Origin: Actinomycetes bacterium
Lineage (GTDB): Bacteria > Actinomycetota > Actinomycetes > Propionibacteriales > Nocardioidaceae
DNA: 45,183 nucleotides
Assembly: GCA_029779385.1 (NCBI GenBank)
Contig: JAKPAQ010000409.1
Span: 1 to 45,183, forward strand
Reading direction: 5' to 3'
Shown here: positions 21,871-35,900 of the stretch, piece after piece
Numbering within the stretch: position 1 is the stretch's first letter
How the letters are laid out: each line of letters opens with the position of its first letter
Notes under the pieces: generated by a model
Told to the model about the DNA's origin: nothing
Databases searched by the model: none
What the model saw: only the letters and a program-made list of their open reading frames with translations
Translations under genes and position numbers: made by a program

Positions 21871-21931
21871 GTGGCGTAGCGAATCGCAACTCGAACACTT
21901 GGCGCGCACGCAAGTAAGCGACAATGGCGCA

Positions 21932-22951
21932 GTGATCAAACCGCCTTCTGTTCAAGCCCACGCAGACGCCGCTGACCGATTGGCCGCCCTAGCAATACCC
22001 GGCGGCGCGCTAGGTCAACTTGGTCAAACGGCCCTGTGGTGGGCGTCGGTTCGCGGCGATGCCAACGCCGCACCGCCGAGTCGAGTGCGCGCAGTCGTGT
22101 TTGCCGGCGACCACGGGGTGGCCGCGCACGGAGTTTCGGCCTACCCGGCCGAAGTTACCGCCGCGATGGTGAGCGCATTCGTCAAACAAGTCGCCGGAGT
22201 TTCGGTGCTGGCCCGCCAGCATGACGTCCATGTTCGAGCGCTCGACTTGGGCGTCAACGCGGACTTGAGCGACTTCGGCCCGAGCGTTACGGCGTTCAAG
22301 GTGCGCTCCGGCACTGAACCGATCCACCTAGCTGACGCGATGACTGCCGAGCAGACGCAGCAGTCGCTCACCGCTGGCGCGACTATCGCTAACGAGGAAC
22401 TGTCCGCCGGCGCCGACCTGCTGATCGCCGGGGACATGGGCATCGGCGACACCACGATTGCGGCCGCACTAATTGCCGCCTGCCTCGGCTTGGCGGCCGA
22501 CGAAGTAACCGGTCGCGGCACCGGAATCGACGACTCAACCCTGGCAACCAAAACTGAGGTGATCGCGACCGCGCTGACTCGCACAAAACCCCGCCACGGC
22601 GACCCGGTAGAACTGCTCACTGCACTTGGCAGCCCCGACATTGCCGCCCAAGTCGGCTACCTCACAACGGCGGCCGAGGCCGGTTGTCCGGTGCTGCTCG
22701 ACGGGGTCGTCTCCGTGGCGGCGGCGTTGGTCGCCGAACGCCTTCGCCCCGGGACCGTGAACTGGTTGTGGGCCGGTCACCGCTCAACTGAGCCGGCGCA
22801 AAGTTTGGCCCTAGCCGACCTCGGCCTGATCCCGCTGCTCGATCTTGGGATGCGACTGGGCGAAGGATCGGGGGCGGTGGCTGCGGTCCCGCTCGTGCGA
22901 TCTGCTGCCCTGCTGTTGACCCAGATCGCCCGCTTGGACGAAATCTTGTGA
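21932..22951 (+). CDS. cobT: nicotinate-nucleotide--dimethylbenzimidazole phosphoribosyltransferase
   Basis: 339 residues from GTG 21932; a TTG at 21899 would add 11 residues. No ribosome site is seen, but a -10-like GACAAT ends six bases before the GTG, so the transcript may be leaderless. CobT makes alpha-ribazole phosphate, activating the lower ligand of cobalamin. Visible: PPSRVRAVVFAGDHGVAAHG (~49-68), GADLLIAGDMGIGDTTIAAA (~155-174), GRGTGID (~191), and LDLGMRLGEGSGAVAAVPL, where Glu ~311 is the expected catalytic base. Stop overlaps the cobS start (GTGA), so the two are coupled. Confidence 0.95.
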   Translation: MIKPPSVQAHADAADRLAALAIPGGALGQLGQTALWWASVRGDANAAPPSRVRAVVFAGDHGVAAHGVSAYPAEVTAAMVSAFVKQVAGVSVLARQHDVHVRALDLGVNADLSDFGPSVTAFKVRSGTEPIHLADAMTAEQTQQSLTAGATIANEELSAGADLLIAGDMGIGDTTIAAALIAACLGLAADEVTGRGTGIDDSTLATKTEVIATALTRTKPRHGDPVELLTALGSPDIAAQVGYLTTAAEAGCPVLLDGVVSVAAALVAERLRPGTVNWLWAGHRSTEPAQSLALADLGLIPLLDLGMRLGEGSGAVAAVPLVRSAALLLTQIARLDEIL

Positions 22952-23736
22952 CGACAGTTTCGCAGAACGTCGTACGCGACGGCATCCGACTTTCGGTCGG
23001 GACGTTCACCGCGATAGCGATCAAAGCGCCGCAGCGAGTTGACCGCGACACGGCGCGAATCGCGTTGCTGATCGCGCCTATCGCAGTCTTGCCGATCGGC
23101 GTGCTGGTTGGCGTCGTCGCGTGGCTGGGCCACCTCGCCGCACTACCCAATATCGTTACCGGCGCGCTAGCAGTTGCCGCCGGCGCGCTCGGTAACCGCG
23201 CCTTTCACCTCGACGGCCTGGCCGACACCGTCGATGCGCTTAGTGCCTCCTACGACCGTGACCGTGCCCTGGCGATCGCTCGAACCGGAGACGTTGGTCC
23301 GGCCGGCGCCACCGCCTTAGTGCTGACCTTGCTGGTCCAGGCCGGCAGCGTTGGCGCGCTCGCGGCCACCACGTGGGGACCGGCACTAGTCGCGCTGTGC
23401 TGGTGCGCGGCTCGAGCCGCAGCCAGCGTTGGCCTTCGTCGCGGCGTACGTCCGGCCAGAGACGACGGACTGGGCCGCACGTTCGCCGAGTCAGTTCCGG
23501 TCGCCGCTGCGCTCGCCCAATGGTTACTGATCGCCGGCGCCTTTACCGCAGTTTTGTCGCTGCTGGGTTCGAACGTTTTCGCCGGGCCCGCGGTTGTCGC
23601 GGTCACCGCATTGGCGGTTCTGCTGCTAATTGGTCACGTCACCAACCGCCTCGGCGGAATCATCGGCGATGCCGTAGGCGCATGCGTCGAGGTGGCGTTC
23701 GCGGCCCTACTGGTGCTTTCCGTCGCGGCACTCTGA
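22948..23736 (+). CDS. cobS: adenosylcobinamide-GDP ribazoletransferase
   Basis: 262 residues from GTG 22948, coupled to cobT by a GTGA overlap. CobS is an integral membrane enzyme joining adenosylcobinamide-GDP and alpha-ribazole to make adenosylcobalamin (or its phosphate). The signature FHLDGLADTVDAL (~86-98) with its metal-binding aspartates is present, followed by RALAIARTGDVGPAG (~106), the local form of the conserved loop. Six or seven hydrophobic segments are visible, and the C-terminus has GHVTNRLGGIIGDAVGACVE (~224-243), also conserved. Works with cobT and with cobU on the opposite strand. Confidence 0.94.
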   Translation: MTTVSQNVVRDGIRLSVGTFTAIAIKAPQRVDRDTARIALLIAPIAVLPIGVLVGVVAWLGHLAALPNIVTGALAVAAGALGNRAFHLDGLADTVDALSASYDRDRALAIARTGDVGPAGATALVLTLLVQAGSVGALAATTWGPALVALCWCAARAAASVGLRRGVRPARDDGLGRTFAESVPVAAALAQWLLIAGAFTAVLSLLGSNVFAGPAVVAVTALAVLLLIGHVTNRLGGIIGDAVGACVEVAFAALLVLSVAAL

Positions 23737-23756: not shown

Positions 23757-24287
23757 TTAGAGGCTAATCGCCCGCCCGGCGACCACTAACAGCACCTCGT
23801 CGCAGTCGAGCGCGAACCGCTGATTGACCTTGCCCAGCAGGTCCCGAAACAGCCGACCCGACCGGTACTCGGGAACGATCGACCAGCCAACCTCGTTGGT
23901 GACCACTACGACGTCTTCACGATGTTGGTTCATCGCCAACACCGCGTGCTCGACGCGAGTCCAAAACTCTGGCTCCCAGTCGTCAAGAGTTTTGTCCCAG
24001 CCGTCGAGTTCACCAATCATCGCGGTGACCCAAGTACCTAGGCAATCGATCAGCAAGGTGCCTTCGGCAGCCAAAATGGCATTGCCAAGATCGGCCGACT
24101 CCACTGTTGCCCAGTGCTCTGGTCGGCGTTCCTGATGAGCCGAAACTCGCGCCGACCACTCGGGATCGAGTTCGTCGTCACCGGTGGGACCGGGCGCAAT
24201 ATAAGTGACCATTTCGGCCGCCACGACGAGCGACTCGGCCAAAAACGACTTGCCCGAACGCACTCCGCCAGTGATGAGAGTTTTCAC
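23757..24287 (-). CDS. cobU: adenosylcobinamide kinase / adenosylcobinamide-phosphate guanylyltransferase
   Basis: 176 residues from GTG 24287 with AGGG about seven bases upstream. The bifunctional enzyme phosphorylates adenosylcobinamide and attaches GMP. P-loop GGVRSGKS (7-14), His51 in SAHQERRP (the position guanylylated in CobU), LLIDCLGTWV (~78) and VVTNEVGWSIVPEYRSGRLF (~127-146) are all present. Convergent with cobS (20-base gap). It lies 47 bases behind the last gene of the riboswitch operon on the same strand, with no terminator visible between, so B12 may control it too. It links imported cobinamide-type corrinoids to cobalamin assembly. Confidence 0.95.
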   Translation of the reverse strand: MKTLITGGVRSGKSFLAESLVVAAEMVTYIAPGPTGDDELDPEWSARVSAHQERRPEHWATVESADLGNAILAAEGTLLIDCLGTWVTAMIGELDGWDKTLDDWEPEFWTRVEHAVLAMNQHREDVVVVTNEVGWSIVPEYRSGRLFRDLLGKVNQRFALDCDEVLLVVAGRAISL

Positions 24288-24334: not shown

Positions 24335-24979
24335 TCATTTCCGGCGGCGGAAAATTACGATTGCCGCTGCACCGAGGATCGCGGCCAACGCGATCAGCAC
24401 GATCACCGAACCCGATACCGCAACCCCGGTCGAATCAACTTCAACCTCAACTACCTGCTTACCGTCGTGGTCGCTGTCAGCTACGACTGCGTCTGCACGG
24501 GTCTGCGCGTTTGCCTCGGCCTTCACCGGAACGTCTTGACCATCCGCCATGAGGTGGTAGACCAAGGCCACAAAGTCACCCTCAGCGAGTTTGTATTCGC
24601 CCATGCCGGTCGAGGCATAACCCCACGGCTTTCCTTCCTTGGCGACCATGAACGCCCAATAGCCGGCACCGGTCAACTTGTCGGTGCAAAGTTCTTTGTC
24701 TTTAGTTGGCTGGCCGTCGATCCGGCAGACCATCGGCATCGTGCCCGTGGTCTGGACGACGTCCGTCCCAGTGCTTTCAAGGCCCTCCAGCGCGGTTTTC
24801 CCTGCAGCGTGCTGCGCGCAGACGATCTTGTCTTTGCCACCGAGTGAACCAAACTCCAGCACCACGGGGACGTCCTCTGCCGATTCGCAGGTTTCGTGGG
24901 CAGAGGCCGCCGCGGGCGCAAGCAGGACCGCGGCCGCAAAGATAAACAGGCCGACGAGTCGAATGAGCAGGTTTTTCAT
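24335..24979 (-). CDS. membrane-anchored transcobalamin-like beta-domain (DUF4430-type) protein, second copy
   Basis: 214 residues from ATG 24979, overlapping the stop of the S-component gene (ATGA) with AAGGAA upstream. Cleavable signal peptide 1-27 (ending ASA), an extracellular domain ~28-150, a linker ~150-185, and a C-terminal membrane helix (~187-208) ending in FRRRK. The domain contains AGKTALEGLE (~59), VCRIDG (~84), AGYWAFMVAKEGKPWGYAS (~103) and GEYKLAEGDFVALVY (~123), the pattern of the DUF4430/transcobalamin C-terminal beta domain. Four cysteines (31, 54, 85, 98) could form two disulfides. Paralogous to 28547-29326. Likely presents or caps corrinoid for the adjacent ECF S component; this function is inferred. 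Confidence 0.8.
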   Translation of the reverse strand: MKNLLIRLVGLFIFAAAVLLAPAAASAHETCESAEDVPVVLEFGSLGGKDKIVCAQHAAGKTALEGLESTGTDVVQTTGTMPMVCRIDGQPTKDKELCTDKLTGAGYWAFMVAKEGKPWGYASTGMGEYKLAEGDFVALVYHLMADGQDVPVKAEANAQTRADAVVADSDHDGKQVVEVEVDSTGVAVSGSVIVLIALAAILGAAAIVIFRRRK

Positions 24980-25791
24980 CAGGATTCCTTCGGTAGATAC
25001 CGCGCCCGCCGGGCGGCGCGACGCAAGGTGGCCAGGACGGCCGGTCCGAGAAAGACGATCAACAGCGTATTGGTAATGGCGCGGCCAGTGTCCCAGCCCC
25101 AGGTTGAGGTCAGCAGCGTGAACACGACGAACCGGTGCAGATTCTCCAGGACTGGATCTCCCGGAACCATCGCCAGGGAGTCGGTGGCGCCGGGGATCGC
25201 GATGCCGAGGGTGAACGGCCACGAAGACAGATTCATCAAGAAACCGAACGCGTACGAGGCGAAGATCGCGTAAACCACCAACATCGCGATTTCCAATTTT
25301 GGGCCTACTCGCCGTGGCAGCAGTCCCGCGCCCATGCCCACCCAAGCCGCACACAGCATCTGAAACGGCAGCCACGGACCGACACCTGAGGTCAGCAACG
25401 CGGACGCAAAAAGACTCGTGCAGCCGAGCACGAAACCGAACCCGGCTCCAAAGACTCGGCCGCCGAGGATGAGTAGGAAAAAGACCAGTTCTATTCCTGC
25501 GACTCCAGCACCTAGCGGCCTGATGGCGGCGTTGATGGCGCTGAGTACGCCGAGCATGGCCAGCGCCTTGGAATCCAGTCCGCCTTCGGAAAGTTCGGCG
25601 ACAACCACCAGAACCACCACTGGCATCAGCGCCATGAAAATGAATGGCTGGTCGACTCGGGTCTGTTCGGGCCCCGGCGTCAGGATGAGCGGCCAGCAGA
25701 GCATTACCAGCCCAGCGAGCGAAGCAGCGGCCAAGACCGCCGCCGATCGAAGAGTCATCGGCACCGCTGCCGAGCGCGGCGAACTGCTCAT
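24979..25791 (-). CDS. ECF transporter S component, probable cobalamin-binding (CbrT-like)
   Basis: 270 residues from ATG 25791, overlapping the ATPase gene's stop (ATGA). About six membrane segments are visible, with LAMLGVLSAINAAIRPLGAG (~77-96) and a GGRVFGAGFGFVLGCTSLFA stretch (~109-128), both typical of S components with the alanine- and glycine-rich packing that meets EcfT. Its substrate cannot be read from the motifs; the cobalamin riboswitch, the transcobalamin-like partners and the cob genes argue for B12 or a related corrinoid. A dedicated EcfT and EcfAA' are in the same operon, so this is a group I, self-contained ECF system. Confidence 0.85.
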   Translation of the reverse strand: MSSSPRSAAVPMTLRSAAVLAAASLAGLVMLCWPLILTPGPEQTRVDQPFIFMALMPVVVLVVVAELSEGGLDSKALAMLGVLSAINAAIRPLGAGVAGIELVFFLLILGGRVFGAGFGFVLGCTSLFASALLTSGVGPWLPFQMLCAAWVGMGAGLLPRRVGPKLEIAMLVVYAIFASYAFGFLMNLSSWPFTLGIAIPGATDSLAMVPGDPVLENLHRFVVFTLLTSTWGWDTGRAITNTLLIVFLGPAVLATLRRAARRARYLPKES

Positions 25792-27383
25792 CAGGCGTCA
25801 CCTCGACGAAGCGCATCAGCGACTTGAGTGACCGTCAACCACTCAGGACCTAGGACCTTTGAAACTTGGGGCGCAAACGCTGGCGACTCGGCCAAAACCG
25901 ACTGGGCCGGGCCGACCGAGACCACTTCGCCATCAGCCATCACCATTAGTGAGTCGGCGACGCTTGCCACGAACTCGACGTCGTGGCTCGAAATAATGAC
26001 GCCGTGGCCGGCCGCTGCCAACTCGTGCAAGATTTCAGCGAGCGCGACTTTGCCCGGATAGTCCAGGCCACGCGTCGGCTCGTCGAGGGCCACGACGAGT
26101 GGCTCGGCGCTCAACACCACAGACAGCACTAAAGCCAACTTTTGACCCTCGGAAAGGTCACGCGGGTGGCGGTCACCGACAATGCCAGGTGCTAGTCGGT
26201 CCAGAATCTTGCGGCAGGTGCCCGCGTCTACGCCGGCCTGGTCGTCGGCGGCAGCACACTCTCGATCGACCGTCTCCAGATAAAGCAAATCCGCCGCAGT
26301 TTGTGGCACCAGCCCCACGCGCATCCGCGCCTCGGCTGGCCGCAGTTTGGCCGGATCGGCCCCATCAACGTCTACCGTCCCCGAGGTTCGGTCCCCGGTT
26401 CCTTGGATCGCCCACAGCAGCGACGATTTGCCCGAGCCGTTGCGACCCATCAGCGCCAGGATCTCGCCCTTGCCGACCGTCAGGTCAACGTTCGTGACTG
26501 CGGGCAACTGGCCGTAACGAACTGTGATGCCTTTGGCCTTGAGCGCCTTCGGGTAACTCTTTTCGATGGCCGCAGGCGGGGCCCCAAGAGTTAAGTCCCG
26601 AGCTTTTCGCCTGGCCTCGCGCACGCTCAACGGCAGCGGCGACCAGCCCGCTAGTTTGCCCAACTGGATCAGCGGTGGCGCAACCGGCGAAGTCGCAATC
26701 AGTTCGGCCGGGTCACCACTTCGCACCCGATGTTCTTCCACGATTACGAGGCGATCAGCGAACGGAACGACACGTTCCATCCGGTGCTCAGCCAGCACGA
26801 CAGTCAGCGCCAAGTCGTCGACCAAGCGAGCGATCGTGGCTAGTACGTCCTCGGCTGCCGTGGGGTCGAGCGCCGAAGTCGGTTCATCGAGCACGAGCAC
26901 TCGAGGATGCATGGTCAGCACCGCACCGATCGCCACCCGCTGTTGCTGGCCGCCAGACAGCGACCGGATCGCCCGGTTGCGTAAGTGAGCGATGCCCAGC
27001 AGATCGAGTGTTTCCTCGACGCGGCGGCGCATCGTCTGCGGCTCCAAGCCCAACTGCTCCATGCCGTAGGCAAGTTCTTCTTCAACGACGTCCGCGACGA
27101 ACCCCGAAAGTGGATCTTGGGCGACGTAGCCAACGAGATGGACGAGTTCGCGAGGTGGCCGACCAATAATCGACTCGCCGTCGAGCAATACGTCGCCAGC
27201 CAAGGTCCCGCCAGTGAAATGTGGCACCAACCCGTTGAACAGTCCCAACAAAGTCGACTTGCCTGAACCGGTGCGACCGGCGACGAGCGCAAGTTCGCCC
27301 TCGTCAAGTTGCAGGTTCACGTCGGCCAGCGTCGGCTCGGCTTCTCCGTCGTACCAGAACGTGATCTCGTCAAGCTTGATCAT
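25791..27383 (-). CDS. ECF transporter fused double ATPase (EcfA-EcfA')
   Basis: 530 residues from ATG 27383 with GAGG four bases upstream; an earlier start would lie inside ecfT. Two ABC ATPase domains in one chain. Domain 1: Walker A GRTGSGKS (36-43), signature LSGGQ (142-146), Walker B RVLVLDEPTSALD (~161). Domain 2: Walker A GRNGSGKS (313-320), a variant signature LSEGQ (~420), Walker B LVVALDEPTRGLD. They power uptake through EcfT and the S component. Predicted cobalamin ECF systems often carry such a duplicated ATPase. Overlaps ecfT by 14 bases and the S gene by four. Confidence 0.93.
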   Translation of the reverse strand: MIKLDEITFWYDGEAEPTLADVNLQLDEGELALVAGRTGSGKSTLLGLFNGLVPHFTGGTLAGDVLLDGESIIGRPPRELVHLVGYVAQDPLSGFVADVVEEELAYGMEQLGLEPQTMRRRVEETLDLLGIAHLRNRAIRSLSGGQQQRVAIGAVLTMHPRVLVLDEPTSALDPTAAEDVLATIARLVDDLALTVVLAEHRMERVVPFADRLVIVEEHRVRSGDPAELIATSPVAPPLIQLGKLAGWSPLPLSVREARRKARDLTLGAPPAAIEKSYPKALKAKGITVRYGQLPAVTNVDLTVGKGEILALMGRNGSGKSSLLWAIQGTGDRTSGTVDVDGADPAKLRPAEARMRVGLVPQTAADLLYLETVDRECAAADDQAGVDAGTCRKILDRLAPGIVGDRHPRDLSEGQKLALVLSVVLSAEPLVVALDEPTRGLDYPGKVALAEILHELAAAGHGVIISSHDVEFVASVADSLMVMADGEVVSVGPAQSVLAESPAFAPQVSKVLGPEWLTVTQVADALRRGDA

Positions 27384-28533
27384 TGGCCTCACCGTTCCTT
27401 GGATCGTGAGCGAGTGGGGCTTGCGGGGCAACAAACACTGGCAGCACACCAATTGCCGCGATCAGCAGTGACGCCATGCTAACTGGCGGCAGACCTGGCA
27501 CGTCGGGGAAGAACACCTGAATCTGCTGCCCGGACATGACTTTGAACCCGATGGCTACGGCGATGCCCGAGGCCGCCGTCAGGTACTCGGCCAACTGCCA
27601 ACGACCCTGCCGATAGCGGGTTCGTTGGACTCGCTTCCCGGCCGACCGCAATGCGAGCACGGCGAGAACTATCCCGCCAGCGAGCATCGGCCAGGCCAAA
27701 ACTCGCGGCGCGGTGCCGTCAAGGTAGCCGTAGGATCCGACGCTGAGCGCGAACAGGCCAAGCAGCATCAACGAACCGGTGATGAACCTCGACCCCCGCG
27801 AAGCGTCGCCGGACCGGCCGTAGCCGCGTGCATCCATGCTGGCCGCCAAGGTCATCGACCGGTCCAGTGCGTCCTCGAGCACCGGGATGACTATTCGATG
27901 CATCGCCCCGGTGCCTTTGCTGGCGTCCCCACGAAGTCTGCGAGCCCGGTTCACCCGCCGAACGCTTTCGGCCAATTGCGGAAAAACCGAGACCGCGACA
28001 ACCAAGGCCGCCCCCACCTCATAGAGCGCTGGAGGCGCGGCGGCCAGGAGTCGTTTGGGGTTGGCCAAGGAGTTTGCCGCACCAACGCAGATGATCAGCG
28101 CGGCTAGCCGAAGGCCGTCGTAGAGGCCCAGCAGCACCTCGTTGACGGTGACATCGCCGAGCAGCTGAATTCCGCGGGCGACTTCGGGTAGCGGGATCTC
28201 GGGCAAGTGGAACAAAATCTGGTCGCCGGGCATCGCACCACCGCCGAACAAGACCCGAAACACCACCCGCATGACCACGATCAACAGGCCGAAGTACAGG
28301 TAGTACCGAAACGACAATGCCCACGGCGCATCGCCGCGACAAGCCCCAACGACCAGTGCCGCGATCGCGATCAGCAGCAGGATTAGGAAAGGGTTGAGGG
28401 CAAAGGATGCCCCGGCGGCCAGCCCCAGCGCCCAAAGCCACCAAGCACCCGGGTGCATCTCTCGACGCATCCGGGTGCTCGTGGCCGCCTTGGCGGGTGT
28501 TGACTCGCGTGGAGTCGGGGTTTCGATGTTCAA
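27370..28533 (-). CDS. ECF transporter transmembrane component EcfT
   Basis: 387 residues if it starts at TTG 28533, 13 bases after the previous stop; an ATG within (MRREMHPGAWWLW) is an alternative, and neither has a strong ribosome site. The EcfT coupling motifs are visible: RARRLRGDA (~197-205) and MDARGYGRSG (~231-240), the two Ala-Arg-Gly-type motifs that bind the ATPases. About four to five core membrane segments precede them and two or three more follow to the end, making the protein longer than the usual ~260 residues. The C-terminal extension has LTAASGIAVAIGFKVMSGQQ. Its role is to couple ATP hydrolysis to the S component. Confidence 0.9.
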   Translation of the reverse strand: MNIETPTPRESTPAKAATSTRMRREMHPGAWWLWALGLAAGASFALNPFLILLLIAIAALVVGACRGDAPWALSFRYYLYFGLLIVVMRVVFRVLFGGGAMPGDQILFHLPEIPLPEVARGIQLLGDVTVNEVLLGLYDGLRLAALIICVGAANSLANPKRLLAAAPPALYEVGAALVVAVSVFPQLAESVRRVNRARRLRGDASKGTGAMHRIVIPVLEDALDRSMTLAASMDARGYGRSGDASRGSRFITGSLMLLGLFALSVGSYGYLDGTAPRVLAWPMLAGGIVLAVLALRSAGKRVQRTRYRQGRWQLAEYLTAASGIAVAIGFKVMSGQQIQVFFPDVPGLPPVSMASLLIAAIGVLPVFVAPQAPLAHDPRNGEANDQA

Positions 28534-28546
28534 ATTGCGATTCTAT

Positions 28547-29326
28547 TCAAGCCTTGCGGCGGCGAACAATGACGAACGTGGCCGCTCCCAGAATCGCTAG
28601 TACCGCAACTGCGGCCAGCCAAACGTCGGCGCCACCACCGGACTCGGCCGATGAGTTCACCGGATCGACGCTTGTTTGTTCGGCGGCCGCGGTGTCGTCA
28701 GTGGACACCGTTGCCCCAGTTGCTGGCTGCTGCGCCGAGGGCGACGTCGTTGCCGAAGCCGACGGCCCGGTTGTCGGCGCACTGGCACTCGGGGCCACCG
28801 ATGAAGTCGCCGACGTGGGCTTGGAATTAGGTGCGGGCTTAGGCGTCGGTTTCGTGGTCGGCTTCGGTGCCGCCGCCTGCTGCGTGATCGGCTTCATCGA
28901 CGGCCACGTTTTCGCGTCCGAGTTCTGGAAAACGAACGCCACCCAGCCACCTTTTGGCACGTCCAGCGAGTCCACGCCCAAACTGGAGTAGATCCACTTT
29001 CCGGATTTGCCGTCCGACCAGAACAGCCCCCAGTACGCGTCAGCAGGTGAGGTGACGGTGCACGGGTCGCTGGCTGGCGCCCCGTCCACTCGGCAAACGA
29101 ATCCCGGCGACCTCTTCGCATAGCTCAGCGTGTGACCGGCCGCGGCAAAGTTCTGGTTTGCTTTGCCGCTGTCATTGCGATCGCAGCGAACGCCACTGCC
29201 AACGACGACCGTTACCCCCGTGCCGGCTGCGCAGCCCGCTGCAGTTGCTGGGGCGGAGAGTCCGACCACGCTGGCAGCGGCCCCAATGAGGACCGCCACC
29301 AGCAGGCGCATGGAGCGCAAAGTCAC
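28547..29326 (-). CDS. membrane-anchored transcobalamin-like beta-domain (DUF4430-type) protein, first copy
   Basis: 259 residues from GTG 29326, overlapping the barrel-protein stop (GTGA); an ATG at 29311 is possible. Signal peptide ~1-30 (ending ATAA), extracellular domain ~31-150, a Pro/Thr/Ser/Ala-rich stalk ~150-225, and a C-terminal membrane helix (~230-252) ending in RRRKA. Domain landmarks are FVCRVDGAPASDPC (~76), AYWGLFWSDGKSGKWIYSS (~97) and SLDVPKGGWVAFVF (~118), closely matching the other copy at 24335-24979, including its four-cysteine spacing. The stalk would hold the domain away from the membrane, as expected for a surface receptor. No LPXTG sorting signal is seen. Ligand inferred from operon context. 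Confidence 0.8.
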   Translation of the reverse strand: MTLRSMRLLVAVLIGAAASVVGLSAPATAAGCAAGTGVTVVVGSGVRCDRNDSGKANQNFAAAGHTLSYAKRSPGFVCRVDGAPASDPCTVTSPADAYWGLFWSDGKSGKWIYSSLGVDSLDVPKGGWVAFVFQNSDAKTWPSMKPITQQAAAPKPTTKPTPKPAPNSKPTSATSSVAPSASAPTTGPSASATTSPSAQQPATGATVSTDDTAAAEQTSVDPVNSSAESGGGADVWLAAVAVLAILGAATFVIVRRRKA

Positions 29327-30876
29327 TTAACAACCTTGAAGGTTTTAGCGCCCTTGCGGTTAGCGAATGCTCCAGTGACGGTGATCTTGGCTTTGCCGGT
29401 CTTCTTGCCGACCTTGATCGAGGTCTTGAACGAGCCCGCCTTGTCCGCCTTGCCAGTACGAACCTGCTTGCCGCGCAGGTAGACCTTCACCGGTTCACCG
29501 GCGGCCAGACCCTTGATCGTGACCTTTTGGGACTTGCCGCGCTTGACCTTGGACTTGGCGACCGAGACCTTTGCCTTCGCTGCGCCAAGGACAGTCGTTT
29601 TGGTCGAACCGACCCGATTAGCGCGCGCACCTACGACGACGATCTGGCGAACGGCGGTGCCGGCCGGTGCCGTCAGGGTCACCGAAAGCGGGCCAGTTGC
29701 CGGAACCGTACCGGCGACTTGAGCACCGCCGGCGAACTTGGCGGTGAACTTCTCGCCCGCGGTCAAGCCGGTTGCGGTCACGTTGACTTTCGAACCGGCA
29801 GCGGTGAACTGCTGCGGGCCCGAAAGTGCAACAGTCGAAGCCGGCAGTTGAGCGTTCACTCCAACAACGGCACCGGTGGTCGAGCGGATCCACTGGTCAC
29901 GCGTTTCGTCGGTGATGCCGCCGGCCAGTCCTGCAGTTAGCGCGGTCGCGTCATACGCAATCGCGCCCGTCTCGGTGGCCAGCGGGCCAGCTTCGGCTGC
30001 CGCGTCCGTCACCTGGTGCTTCACGAGCCAGCCCGCAGCAGAACCGGCGGCGCCAGTTTGACCAACCTGGGCAAGGTAGGCCGCAGCCAGACCGGTCGAG
30101 TTGCTGTTCGAAACTCCGTTGCCGATGAACGAACCGTCGGCCTGTTGGGCCGCCAGTAGCGCCGCGGTTGCCTTCGCGATTTCATCGTCCAACCCAGCGA
30201 TTCCGGCGTCCTTGGCCTCGATCAAGGTCTGGGCCGCGACCACGGTGGTGTCCACCTCGATCACTGCCGGGCAGGCGGCAGCCAGGTTCTGTTTGAACGA
30301 GCCGTCCTCACACTGGTTGCTGGCCACGAACTCGACCGACTTGGCCGCTTCGGCGCTTTCTTCGCTCAGCAAAGCGCGAGTGGCGAAAGCCTGACCGAAC
30401 AGGCCGTAGGTGTTCGCCGATTCGCCGGTCGCGTCGTTCGTCTCCTGCTCGATCTTGGCGATCAAGTCGGTTCCGTTCACGTCAGTTGCGTCGCCGCCCG
30501 CAGCCTCAATCGCGAGCGCGAGCTTTCCTCCCGACCCTGGGCGGAACGTGACCGAGGTGCCGTCGTCATACGTGGTGTAAGCGGCGCTGTTGGCCTTAAC
30601 CGCGTTGACGATCTTGTTCTGGGTGGCGGTTCGAACGCCGAGGTCGTTCAAGACGAAGAAGACGTCCAAGCTCAGCCCGTAGTCGTCGAAGCCGCCCCAG
30701 TTCGGGTTGTGAATCAACCCTTCGTCTGAGAGCTGGTCTTCAAGCCAGCGAGAGGCCGAGTACGCATAGGAGTTGGTGGCGGCGTTCGCAGCGGGCGAAA
30801 TGATCGCGGCCGTTGATAGGGCAACAGCGCTGCCGGCGAGCACTGCCAGGGCGCGTTGACGTAGGGGTGACTTCAT
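29323..30876 (-). CDS. secreted alpha/alpha-barrel (prenyltransferase/squalene-cyclase-like repeat) protein, probable corrinoid binder
   Basis: 517 residues from ATG 30876 with AAGGA six bases upstream. Signal peptide 1-32 (ending ANA). Residues ~34-340 contain six helical-hairpin repeats of the toroid type: for example SASRWLEDQL with GGFDDYGLSLDVFFVLNDLG, then LLAAQQADGSFIGN with STGLAAAYLAQVGQ. This is the alpha6/alpha6 barrel fold shared by protein prenyltransferases, squalene cyclases and the N-terminal domain of intrinsic factor and transcobalamin. Catalytic DxDD or zinc motifs are not seen. Two Ig-like beta repeats follow (~345-430, ~432-517); the last is very lysine-rich, with no membrane helix. 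First gene behind the cobalamin riboswitch. It probably binds corrinoid with the beta-domain partners; that is inferred. Confidence 0.82.
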   Translation of the reverse strand: MKSPLRQRALAVLAGSAVALSTAAIISPAANAATNSYAYSASRWLEDQLSDEGLIHNPNWGGFDDYGLSLDVFFVLNDLGVRTATQNKIVNAVKANSAAYTTYDDGTSVTFRPGSGGKLALAIEAAGGDATDVNGTDLIAKIEQETNDATGESANTYGLFGQAFATRALLSEESAEAAKSVEFVASNQCEDGSFKQNLAAACPAVIEVDTTVVAAQTLIEAKDAGIAGLDDEIAKATAALLAAQQADGSFIGNGVSNSNSTGLAAAYLAQVGQTGAAGSAAGWLVKHQVTDAAAEAGPLATETGAIAYDATALTAGLAGGITDETRDQWIRSTTGAVVGVNAQLPASTVALSGPQQFTAAGSKVNVTATGLTAGEKFTAKFAGGAQVAGTVPATGPLSVTLTAPAGTAVRQIVVVGARANRVGSTKTTVLGAAKAKVSVAKSKVKRGKSQKVTIKGLAAGEPVKVYLRGKQVRTGKADKAGSFKTSIKVGKKTGKAKITVTGAFANRKGAKTFKVVK

Positions 30877-30885
30877 GGTGTTCCT

Positions 30886-30903
30886 TCCCGCTGCAAGGCG
30901 GGA
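30886..30903 (-). promoter_or_regulatory. hairpin abutting the ribosome site, riboswitch expression platform
   Basis: A perfect six-base-pair stem (TCCCGC...GCGGGA) with a six-base loop sits directly before the barrel-protein start; its 3' arm runs into the GGGAAGGA ribosome site. It could hide that site when formed and probably is the switch by which B12 binding blocks translation. No U-run follows, so it is not an intrinsic terminator. Confidence 0.55.
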
Positions 30904-30904
30904 G

Positions 30905-31058
30905 GGGCCGAAGCGCCACCCGCTGTATTCCTCGACAGCGTGCGATGGGTTCCCAACAGGCAGGTGCTCCGGCTCTACCGACTAGCGGCATTACGGTTGC
31001 GGGTCAGCGCCGGATTCGCACCGGCTTCCCCTGACACTGCGGGATTTAGTTTTTTGAC
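30905..31058 (-). ncRNA. cobalamin riboswitch
   Basis: Read on the minus strand, the leader holds the classical B12-box region: GGGAAGCCGGTGCGAATCC, then CTGACCCGCAACCGTAA (30990-31030), followed by GAGCCGGAGCACCTGCC (30959-30975) and GAGGAATACAGCGGGTGG further on (30919-30933 region). GTCAG (31031-31035) and CTGAC (31002-31006) pair around the box, as in known cobalamin aptamers. Bound adenosylcobalamin would shut off the six-gene transport operon at 24335-30876. A TAGGAT at 31066-31071 is a possible -10, but no good -35 pairs with it. Boundaries are approximate. Confidence 0.93.
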
Positions 31059-31113: not shown

Positions 31114-33006
31114 ATGAGTCCCGGTGACGAACTTCGCAAAGCAATTGACGGCAAATGGCGCCATGTCCGCGAGCAGGGGCGAACCGACCTCGCGCGATTG
31201 GATCTGGCCTACGATCACTCGCTGGGCATGAGCCAGGCCCGCGAGCGGGTCTTGGGCCAACTGAAACAACTCGTACCAACAGGTATCCCCGCGGCCGGGT
31301 TCCGCACCGAGAACGGCGGCACCGGCGACCCCGGCATGGCGGTCACCGGCATCGAAATGCTCGCCCAGTTTGATCTGACCTTGATGGTCAAGGCCGGGGT
31401 GCAGTGGGGGTTGTTTGGCGGCGCGATCGAGAACCTCGGCACCGCCGAACACCACCAGGCTTATATTCGTCCGCTCATCAACCTAGATTTGCTCGGCTGT
31501 TTCGCGATGACCGAAACCGGTCACGGCAGCGACGTCCAGAGCTTAGAAACCACCGCCACGTTCGACCCGGCAAGCGACGAATTCGTGATCAATTCGCCGA
31601 CGCCGTCGGCACGCAAGGACTACATCGGCGGCGCGGCCGAGCACGCCCAAATCGCCGCGGTTTTTGCCAGGTTGATCACCGCCGGCACCGATCATGGGGT
31701 GCACTGTTTCGTGGTGCCGCTTCGCGACGAAGCCGGCAACGACCTACCCGGGGTGACCACGAGCGATTGCGGTTACAAGGGCGGCCTCGGCGGCGTGGAC
31801 AACGGCCGAATCATGTTCGACCACGTCCGCGTGCCGCGCGCCAACCTACTCAACCGCTACGGCAACGTCGCCGAAGACGGCACCTACTCCTCGCCGATCG
31901 AAAACCCGAACGCGCGGTTCTTCACGATGATCGGCACCCTCATCCGCGGCCGAGTCAGCGTCGGCGGTTCGGCTCGGTCGGCCGCCGAAGTCGCGCTCAG
32001 CATCGCCACTCGCTATGGTCTGCAGCGCCGCCAGTTCGAGGGCACCCCCGGTACCGAGACGGTGCTGCTGGACTACCGCGTTCACCAACGTCGACTGCTG
32101 CCGCTGCTGGCCGAGAGTTACGCCTATCGGTGTGCACAGAACCAGTTGGTGGCCCGGATGGATCGCCTGCAGACCTCGACAAATCCCGACCCCCAAGAGG
32201 TGCGTGAACTGGAAGCTCGGGCCGCGGGGCTGAAAGTGATTCAGACCGAGTTCGCCACCCGCGCCATCCAAGAGTGCCGCGAGGCGTGCGGCGGGGCGGG
32301 CTATCTGGCCGAGAACCGGCTAACGACGCTAAAGGCCGACAGCGACGTGTTCACCACCTTCGAAGGCGACAACGTCGTCTTGCTGCAATTGGTGGCCAAG
32401 GAGCTTTTGACCTCCTACGCCAAGGACGTGACCGGGCTAGATCCGGTGCAAATGGTTCGCTTCGCCGCCGGCACAGTCGCCGACACAGTCAAGGAACGGA
32501 CTGCGGCCTCGCAACTGATTCAGCGTCTCATCGACGCCAGATCGCGCGACGACGAGCACAACCTGCTCGACCGGGGCACCCAGTTGAATCTGTTCGAAGA
32601 CCGCGAACAGCACGTGATTGAGACCGCCGCTCGGCGGTTGCGCAAAGCCGGCAAGGACAAGGCGAAGGCCTTTGCTGCGTTCAACGCCGCCCAAGATCAC
32701 GTGGTGAGGATTGGCCGCGTCCACACCGAACGCGTCGTCCTCGAAGCCTTCACCGCCGCGATCGCTCGGTGTGAGGACGAGCAGGCCACCGACATGCTGC
32801 GCGACCTGTGCTCGCTCTATGCACTGACTGCGATCGAGCGCGACAAGGCTTGGTTCATGGAACACAACCGAATTTCAGATGATCGCGCCAAGTCGGTAAC
32901 CCGCGAAATCAATCAACTGCTGGTAAAGATTCGGCCTAACGTGCTGGCGGTTGTCGAAGGGCTTGGCGTGCCGGTCGAAACGCTCGGCGCCTCGATGCTC
33001 GATTGA
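31114..33006 (+). CDS. acyl-CoA oxidase / acyl-CoA dehydrogenase family protein
   Basis: 630 residues from ATG 31114. There is no clear ribosome site, but TAGCGT ends six bases before the ATG, suggesting a leaderless transcript. The FAD-dependent enzyme oxidises acyl-CoA to the 2,3-enoyl form at the start of beta-oxidation. Seen: FAMTETGHGSDVQSLETTAT (~130-149, flavin and substrate loop), GLGGVDNGRIMFDHVRVPR (~225-243), CREACGGAGYL and VFTTFEGDN with Glu417 as the likely catalytic base, and a C-terminal acyl-CoA-oxidase-type helical domain to the end. The length (over 600) matches oxidases rather than ~390-residue dehydrogenases. Convergent with the MarR gene; substrate range unknown. Confidence 0.9.
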   Translation: MSPGDELRKAIDGKWRHVREQGRTDLARLDLAYDHSLGMSQARERVLGQLKQLVPTGIPAAGFRTENGGTGDPGMAVTGIEMLAQFDLTLMVKAGVQWGLFGGAIENLGTAEHHQAYIRPLINLDLLGCFAMTETGHGSDVQSLETTATFDPASDEFVINSPTPSARKDYIGGAAEHAQIAAVFARLITAGTDHGVHCFVVPLRDEAGNDLPGVTTSDCGYKGGLGGVDNGRIMFDHVRVPRANLLNRYGNVAEDGTYSSPIENPNARFFTMIGTLIRGRVSVGGSARSAAEVALSIATRYGLQRRQFEGTPGTETVLLDYRVHQRRLLPLLAESYAYRCAQNQLVARMDRLQTSTNPDPQEVRELEARAAGLKVIQTEFATRAIQECREACGGAGYLAENRLTTLKADSDVFTTFEGDNVVLLQLVAKELLTSYAKDVTGLDPVQMVRFAAGTVADTVKERTAASQLIQRLIDARSRDDEHNLLDRGTQLNLFEDREQHVIETAARRLRKAGKDKAKAFAAFNAAQDHVVRIGRVHTERVVLEAFTAAIARCEDEQATDMLRDLCSLYALTAIERDKAWFMEHNRISDDRAKSVTREINQLLVKIRPNVLAVVEGLGVPVETLGASMLD

Positions 33007-34279: not shown

Positions 34280-35107
34280 TCAAGGCCGGCGCGGGAAGCG
34301 ACTGAAGTCCGGGGTGCGCTTTTCCTTGTACGCGTCGCGGCCCTCTTGCGCTTCGGCCTGGCCGTAGAACAACAGATTCGCGTCGTGGGCGAGTTGCTGG
34401 ATGCCGGCGTAACCGTCCTCGTGGGCGTGGAAGCTGAGTTTGGACAACCGCAAGGCCCACGGTGAGAGCTGCAACATTTCTCGGCACCACTTGAGGGTTT
34501 CGGTCTCCAGCTCCGCGAGCGGAACGACTGTGTTGACCAGACCCATCTCTAGGGCGGTCGGCGCATCGTACTGGCGGCACAGGAACCAGATTTCTTTCGC
34601 CTTCTTCGGTCCGACGAGGTCCGCCAGAATGCTCGCGCCGTAGCCACCATCGAACGAACCGACCTTCGGGCCGACTTGGCCAAATCGCGCGTTGTCGGCG
34701 GCGATGGTCAGATCCGCAACGAGGTGCAACACGTGCCCGCCACCGATCGCCCAGCCGGCGACCATCGCCACAATGGGCTTGGGGGTGCGGCGCATCTGCA
34801 CGTGCAAATCGGTGACGTCGAAGCGGCCAGTGGCGCCCTCGTCGACCTTGTAGCCCGAATCGCCACGCACCCGCTGATCACCACCGGAACAGAACGCCAA
34901 GTCGCCCTCGCCGGTCAAGATGATGACGCCGACGGACTCGTCGTCGCGGGCCAAAGTGAGGGCGTGCGAAATCTCTCGGATGGTCTGCGGGCGGAACGCA
35001 TTGTGAACCTCTGGCCGGCGAATGGTGATCTTCGCGATCCCGTCCTCGGTCGTCTCGTAGCCAATATCGGTCCAGTCGCCTACTGCAGTCCACTCGGTCG
35101 TCGTCAT
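34280..35107 (-). CDS. menB: 1,4-dihydroxy-2-naphthoyl-CoA synthase
   Basis: 275 residues from ATG 35107. A crotonase-fold enzyme that closes the second ring of menaquinone from o-succinylbenzoyl-CoA. Diagnostic for MenB rather than generic enoyl-CoA hydratase are [16 protein letters not shown] (~73-88), [20 protein letters not shown] (~107-126), [20 protein letters not shown] (~144-163, with the Ser and Asp of the active site) and the C-terminal [20 protein letters not shown]. Other men genes are not in this window. Start overlaps no other gene, but the next gene on the plus strand begins 26 bases away, divergently. Confidence 0.96.
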
Positions 35108-35132
35108 GGGATCCAGCCTAGATTGGGTGCTG

Positions 35133-35900
35133 ATGAAAGATGACCTCGGATTCGACGTGCCCACCCAAACTCCGGCAACGCGGGTGGTTTCGCTTGTCCC
35201 CTCACTTACTGAGGCGTTGGCGGCCAGTAGGCCCGACGCGCTCGTCGGCGCGACCGACTGGTGCATCAAACCGGCCGACTTGGCAGTCGCCCGCGTTCGA
35301 GGAACCAAAAACCCGAACATCTCGCAGATCATCGACCTGCAACCTGACCTAGTGATCGCGAACAAGGAGGAAAACCGCGAACTCGATGTCAGCCGCCTAC
35401 GCGAGGCCGGCCTGAACGTCTGGGTCACCGATATCGAAACTCTCGACGAATCCTTCTCCTCGATGCGCCGGCTCTTCGAAATCGCGCTCGGCTGGCCGGT
35501 GCCCGACTGGCTGGCCGAAGCAGAACGCATTTGGGCTGAACCGGCGCCCCAGTTGGAGCTAACGGTCGCGGTGGCGATTTGGCGTGACCCGTGGATGGTT
35601 GTTGGCCGCGACACCTTCACCGGCGACCTACTCGGTCGACTCGGCGTCAAAAACCACTTTGACAGTTCCGAAGGCCGCTACCCGCACGTCGAATTGAGCA
35701 ACTTGGACAACGTCGGTGTCGACCTCATCCTGCTGCCGGACGAGCCGTACGAGTTCAGTCAGACCGACGGGCCGGAGGCGTTCACCAACACCAAAACAGT
35801 GCTTTGCAGCGGTCAAGCGCTGACTTGGTACGGCCCGGCCCTGCTCACCTCGCGTGCCGAAATACTGGCCTCGCTCAGTCCTGGTCGTACTCCGAACTGA
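35133..35900 (+). CDS. BtuF/TroA-like helical-backbone binding protein without signal peptide
   Basis: 255 residues from ATG 35133 ([12 protein letters not shown]). Cluster A-III substrate-binding fold: [17 protein letters not shown] (~16-32), [13 protein letters not shown] (~35-47), [20 protein letters not shown] (~55-74) and a long linking helix near 105-135. This matches the BtuF-like family (COG0614) of corrinoid, haem and siderophore binders. There is no signal peptide or lipobox, so the product should be cytoplasmic, unlike a transporter receptor. No permease or ATPase gene is next to it. Its 3' end overlaps ndh by 26 bases. Ligand unknown; corrinoid is one candidate given the nearby B12 locus. 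Confidence 0.8.

Follow-up and report, generated by a model that had tools for sequence, protein, structure and literature searches.

Which ligand does a tightly packed operon import when it stands behind a cobalamin riboswitch, and where is that ligand first bound? The window, the whole stretch of DNA that was analysed (45,183 nucleotides, contig JAKPAQ010000409.1 of the Nocardioidaceae assembly GCA_029779385.1), raises this question through six genes for a barrel protein, two beta proteins (beta1 and beta2) and an energy-coupling factor (ECF) transporter made up of EcfT, EcfAA′ and a substrate-specific (S) component. In ECF transporters the S component is usually taken as the binding protein. 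The locus is read here as an uptake operon for a corrinoid, vitamin B12 or cobinamide, in which a split transcobalamin-like clamp feeds the ECF module, with a probability of roughly 0.77. The wider proposal, an ECF importer that relies on an extracellular two-part clamp (a barrel with exchangeable beta caps) docking on the S component and in some actinobacteria encoded in frame with it, seems slightly better than an even bet.

The observed basis comprises the gene set, its packing, the riboswitch, the predicted folds, a conserved neighbourhood and natural fusions of the parts; from these we infer the ligand, the complex, the hand-over and the direction of regulation. One half of the clamp would be the secreted barrel and the other the two membrane-tethered beta-grasp proteins, closing together around the corrinoid on the outer side of the membrane. 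Once closed, it would dock at the S component, and EcfT with the fused ATPases would power import. CobU, with CobT and CobS, would complete imported corrinoid precursors, and the riboswitch presumably reduces expression at high adenosylcobalamin.

The Operon and Its Predicted Proteins

On the minus strand, the riboswitch is followed by the genes for the barrel, beta1, EcfT, EcfAA′, the S component and beta2 (Table 1), with intergenic distances of -4, 13, -14, -1 and -1 nt, and 47 nt from beta2 to cobU. The genes cobT and cobS lie on the strand opposite to the operon and cobU. A first-pass annotation of the letters alone had described six packed genes under a B12 riboswitch with cobU adjoining and cobTS near, and this description holds: the open reading frames (ORFs) are in place, RF01482 exceeds its gathering score, and CobU, CobT and CobS are matched by Pfam.

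The ECF module was recognized with unequal clarity. EcfT passes the Pfam CbiQ cut-off only narrowly (26 vs. 25 bits). In EcfAA′, ABC_tran matches two stretches of a single chain, and the top NCBIfam match is ECF_ATPase_1 (285.8 bits, cut-off 315). EcfT and the two ATPases of an ECF transporter are thus present as annotated. The putative S component, also annotated at first pass, has a match to ECF-ribofla_trS (PF07155) under the cut-off (19.3 vs. 26.7 bits) and six hydrophobic segments. Its family profile matches the S part of proteins in which an S component is fused to a barrel, and these fused homologues match ECF_trnsprt, likewise under the cut-off. A phmmer search of the S component (P0005) against PDB sequences found no chain.

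Beta2 is predicted to adopt a beta-grasp fold whose nearest structure is the transcobalamin beta domain. In domains of the transcobalamin type, a ligand-contacting beta-hairpin insert follows the helix; the beta2 model has a helix at residues 63-68 and then two short strands, which may or may not correspond to that insert. Beta1 is predicted to consist of a signal sequence, a beta-grasp domain, a linker rich in proline, threonine and serine and a hydrophobic C-terminal segment, and its family aligns with that of beta2 at an hhalign probability of 99.5 (E 2.7e-23). Predicted folds uphold the proposed likeness to intrinsic factor in the case of beta2, and with less specificity in that of the barrel. 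Both beta proteins had been called anchored, and both do have a hydrophobic C-terminal segment; a sortase motif is not established, because the anchor models matched (LAVTG type in beta1, LPXTG in beta2) both score under their cut-offs. Pfam DUF4430 gave no match to either window protein, and beta1 had no useful Pfam match at all. DUF4430 weakly matched 18 of 38 beta2-family members (best E 4.1e-4), and in the related loci L123 and L124 it scored 49.9 and 47.9 bits in the second beta gene and 17.1 and 22.4 in the first, with a cut-off of 23.8. Beta2 also weakly matches NCBIfam SCO2322 (22.8 bits, cut-off 85), and the beta2-family profile gave no useful match among PDB sequences. As a guess, the two beta proteins could be alternative caps for different corrinoids, or one a capture cap and the other a delivery cap.

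The barrel protein is divided into an alpha/alpha toroid (residues ~34-345) and an all-beta C-terminal part (~346-517). The toroid agrees with the secreted alpha/alpha barrel expected at first pass; the C-terminal part, modeled with high confidence, had been missed. The nearest named relatives of the barrel protein are from Aeromicrobium (59-60% identity), and other database proteins reach 88%, 71%, and 61%; a host akin to Aeromicrobium (Nocardioidaceae) is probable. A weak match to NCBIfam SCO2321 (36 bits, cut-off 300) was obtained, a phmmer search against PDB sequences gave no useful match, and literature naming SCO2321-SCO2324 yielded nothing relevant.

Conservation in Relatives

A contig scan recovered 222 barrel relatives among 238 pattern stretches, from which the best 80 loci, mainly Nocardioides and relatives, were kept; L062 and L064 are one genome and identical over the operon, so these loci are not all independent. 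The full set of barrel, beta, EcfT, ATPase and S genes occurs in 63 of the 80. Forty have exactly the plus-strand order barrel-beta-T-A-S, and 10 more have this order with a second barrel at the start. The conserved gene order led to rejection of a chance neighbourhood. Eleven of the 17 loci that lack the full set end within 112 nt of a contig edge and L020 within 886 nt, which leaves five incomplete loci with sequence to spare: L068 and four with a barrel alone (L005, L006, L013, and L073). L005, L006, and L013 have a riboswitch and a barrel, and no beta or ECF genes in the following 10, 10, and 3.5 kb, respectively.

For the riboswitch, a covariance model was built from eight examples (the window, L001, L007, L065 and two each from L066 and L080). 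A match lies within 450 nt upstream of a barrel domain in 78 of the 80 loci, or 73 of 75 when the five training loci are set aside; the misses are L020, with its barrel at a contig edge, and L073. The survey of homologues thus largely favors the first-pass proposal, related barrels standing directly behind cobalamin riboswitches and mostly with an ECF module. Barrel leaders make up 83 of the 91 matches in these loci, and the remaining eight include three before separate beta genes (L060, L065, and L066) and one in L001. The last, at L001 12424-12540 on the plus strand (RF00174, 35.5 bits), gives that operon an additional, internal cobalamin riboswitch, which separates beta1 from EcfT. At gathering score, Rfam recognized the barrel leader in two of seven loci tried (L066 and L080); with an E-value threshold, RF00174 was found in three of three other loci, one above the cut-off and two slightly below. 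Six genomes searched whole had 4 to 9 RF00174 matches each. Two tandem barrels ahead of a single beta gene were seen in L026, L028, L032, L038, L043, L056, L062, L064, L074, L077, and L079, where the riboswitch match precedes the second barrel and none lies within 450 nt of the first.

A broader sample covered 246 Actinomycetota genomes, 52 of which were matched by the barrel profile at E <= 1e-10, weak matches among them possibly being ordinary cyclases. Thirty loci were kept (L082 is the same genome as L001). A beta domain is present in 22 of them, either as a fusion or within the short flank, three more have ECF genes, and five have neither (L090, L093, L095, L098, and L109). In L087 the fused beta part was recognized by eye only, and the beta-profile match sits in a different ORF.

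Whether the hosts also make B12 was assessed in 13 relatives. All 13 have B12-binding domains, and CobI/CbiL exceeds the cut-off in nine, two of which (G001 and G003) are Aeromicrobium genomes, so salvage beside B12 synthesis is likely in many hosts. Barrel and beta genes without CobI/CbiL over the cut-off occur in G012, G027, G163, and G055, genomes that are possibly incomplete.

Natural Fusions

Parts that are separate in the window are joined elsewhere. Three of the 30 loci of the phylum sample (L096, L101, and L105) have barrel and beta in one ORF. With more flanking sequence, two of these three (as L111 and L112) show the barrel-beta gene between a riboswitch and genes for EcfT, EcfAA′ and an S component; in the third (L113) the riboswitch precedes a barrel-beta-SLH gene with no adjoining ECF genes. 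The toroid precedes the beta domain in L111-L113 and in P0164-P0166. Two Streptomyces proteins, P0217 and P0220, are single chains with an N-terminal beta domain followed by two barrels.

The second type of fusion joins the S component to the barrel. The L111 protein has 62 relatives in the database, in which profiles (domain E < 0.05) identified barrel plus beta in five, P0217 and P0220 among them, and S component plus barrel in 33. When 396 genomes were searched with an S-barrel profile, 48 matched at E <= 1e-40, many of them along just one part; among the matches listed, 14 cover both S and barrel, and an inner stop interrupts seven of these but not the other seven. In L123-L126 the S-barrel ORF comes after EcfAA′, and 4-5 kb upstream lies a cobalamin riboswitch of the same orientation. 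The beta proteins of L123 and L124 are the first two genes of the operon. The EcfT proteins of L123-L126 were missed by our own profile; Pfam CbiQ identified that of L123, and that of L124 was recognized by eye. The L128 sequence begins inside the operon, so any upstream riboswitch lies outside it.

S-barrel relatives have a hydrophobic, signal-peptide-like segment between S and barrel that ends, as judged by eye, in an AxA-like motif. These proteins may consequently be cut, in which case the fusion would show coupling and not a permanent link. Barrel-beta and S-barrel fusions support the proposed assembly and hand-over.

Alternative Explanations

Uptake of cobalt or a cobalt chelate by a B12-regulated ECF importer of the cobalt type would suit the EcfT match to CbiQ, as well as the nine relatives with CobI/CbiL, which are probably B12 makers that need cobalt. 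The available parts of one study place B12 riboswitches ahead of some predicted Ni/Co transporters (PMC2667541). However, neither Pfam nor NCBIfam gave a cobalt-type family match for the S component, and on this ground cobalt uptake was rejected. A big toroid with a transcobalamin-type beta cap also fits a bulky ligand better, and the four possibly incomplete genomes without CobI/CbiL over the cut-off keep barrel and beta, all of which makes cobalt an improbable substrate.

The same architecture might instead bind a different ligand, such as some other large cofactor or a product of B12-related breakdown. Possible non-B12 ligands for the clade were stressed by a referee and the authors in the available text of Burroughs et al. 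(2007; PMC1796856). The cobalamin riboswitch of 78 of 80 loci and the cobU gene beside the window operon argue otherwise, and a different ligand is accordingly given little credence.

One result weighs against a clamp: in structure comparison of the predicted model, the toroid has the alpha/alpha fold of class II terpene cyclases, its closest matches being these enzymes, and entries for MstE D109 mutants occur in the output. The first-pass annotation had itself counted an enzyme-like barrel against its proposal, and this objection stands by half, the best matches being enzymes and the catalytic acid apparently absent. Class II cyclases carry their DxDD acid where the second inner helix begins. 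At the corresponding site of the barrels, a provisional placement by inner-helix order along an end-to-end alignment rather than from coordinates, K118 is invariant (101/101 alignment rows) and no acid is conserved. In 29 of the 101 rows there are DxDD strings, all at other, unconserved positions. An active secreted terpene cyclase or other toroid enzyme, incidentally B12-regulated, is thus very improbable, and the cyclase was rejected, since the fold suits but the acid seems to be missing and fusion to a beta domain and to an S component better fits a binding protein.

Relation to Known Systems

The closest precedent for the corrinoid clamp is a prediction. The transcobalamin-type clade of soluble ligand-binding beta-grasp (SLBB) domains was defined by Burroughs et al. 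(2007; PMC1796856), whose available text describes CbiO/CbiQ operons with toroid and SLBB proteins that are secreted or lie at the surface, occur singly or as fusions in both orders and often include a second SLBB paralogue, and predicts cooperative B12 scavenging. The clade was reported from low-GC Gram-positives and planctomycetes, and more rarely from euryarchaea; a figure legend names a Mycobacterium sp., clade unspecified. The core idea of B12 capture by toroid and beta domain was therefore already in print, and the first-pass annotation overstated its novelty. The actinobacterial split form, the riboswitch and the S-component/barrel fusion are not described in the available parts of that paper. 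The greatest novelty lies in the signs that an extracellular clamp is wired to the ECF S component, rather than in the likeness to intrinsic factor.

The animal carriers transcobalamin, haptocorrin and intrinsic factor share with the window an alpha/alpha toroid and a transcobalamin-type beta-grasp domain. They hold both in one chain, whereas the window distributes them over three, two of which are beta proteins with a hydrophobic C-terminus; corrinoid binding in the window is predicted, and import is probably via the ECF transporter. ECF-CbrT of Lactobacillus, a characterized B12 importer, resembles the window in its ECF module and B12 context. The available part of the report (PMC5997447) terms its S component the substrate-binding protein and mentions no partner outside the cell, whereas the window has a secreted barrel and beta proteins.

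The literature searched, with most subscription journals outside it and judged mainly by titles, abstract openings and selected passages, yielded no actinobacterial split form, no S-barrel fusion and no experimental work on a toroid/beta ECF system, the last in agreement with the first-pass statement that proof is lacking. To our knowledge, extracellular B12 capture and transfer to ECF importers are so far untested. The operon offers separable parts (barrel, two caps and S component), with relatives in cultured strains, for testing the 2007 prediction, and the fusions make one specific proposal open to checking: an ECF S component supplied by a corrinoid clamp outside the cell. The system bears on how the two-domain layout shared by intrinsic factor and transcobalamin arose; if the reading is true, actinobacteria would preserve, in their split and fused forms, living stages in the assembly of the animal-type B12 carrier architecture.

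Coordinates and Flanking Genes

Table 1. Features of the window operon, its neighbours and the S-barrel ORFs of related loci (window positions unless a locus is named).
Feature	Position	Strand	Basis
Cobalamin (adenosylcobalamin) riboswitch RF01482, operon start	30911..31057	-	cmscan 58.5 bits vs. gathering 50
Barrel protein, 517 aa, secreted	29323..30876	-	Signal peptide judged by eye; toroid and C-terminal all-beta part
Alpha/alpha toroid domain of barrel protein, residues 34-345	29842..30777	-	Extent of structural matches
Beta1, 259 aa	28547..29326	-	Family-to-family hhalign; hydrophobic segments
EcfT, CbiQ family	27370..28533	-	PF02361, 26 bits vs. cut-off 25
EcfAA′, both ATPase domains on one chain	25791..27383	-	Two ABC_tran stretches
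ECF S component	24979..25791	-	Sub-cut-off PF07155; six hydrophobic segments; family profile matches S-barrel fusions
Beta2, 214 aa	24335..24979	-	Transcobalamin-like beta-grasp domain and C-terminal hydrophobic segment
Beta-grasp domain of beta2, residues 33-144	24548..24883	-	Extent of structural matches
cobU, cobinamide kinase/guanylyltransferase	23757..24287	-	PF02283, 170.9 bits
cobT and cobS, lower-loop assembly genes	21899..23736	+	PF02277, 367.8 bits; PF02654, 107 bits
S component and barrel in a single ORF	L123 8161-10071; L124 8919-10871; L125 8036-10075; L126 9202-11070	-	

Two further genes were observed on the plus strand of the window. At 35106-35900 lies a gene for a BtuF-like Peripla_BP_2 protein (PF01497, 33 bits), by eye without a signal sequence. 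An acyl-CoA oxidase/dehydrogenase gene at 31114-33006 diverges from the riboswitch, and the intergenic region is common to both.

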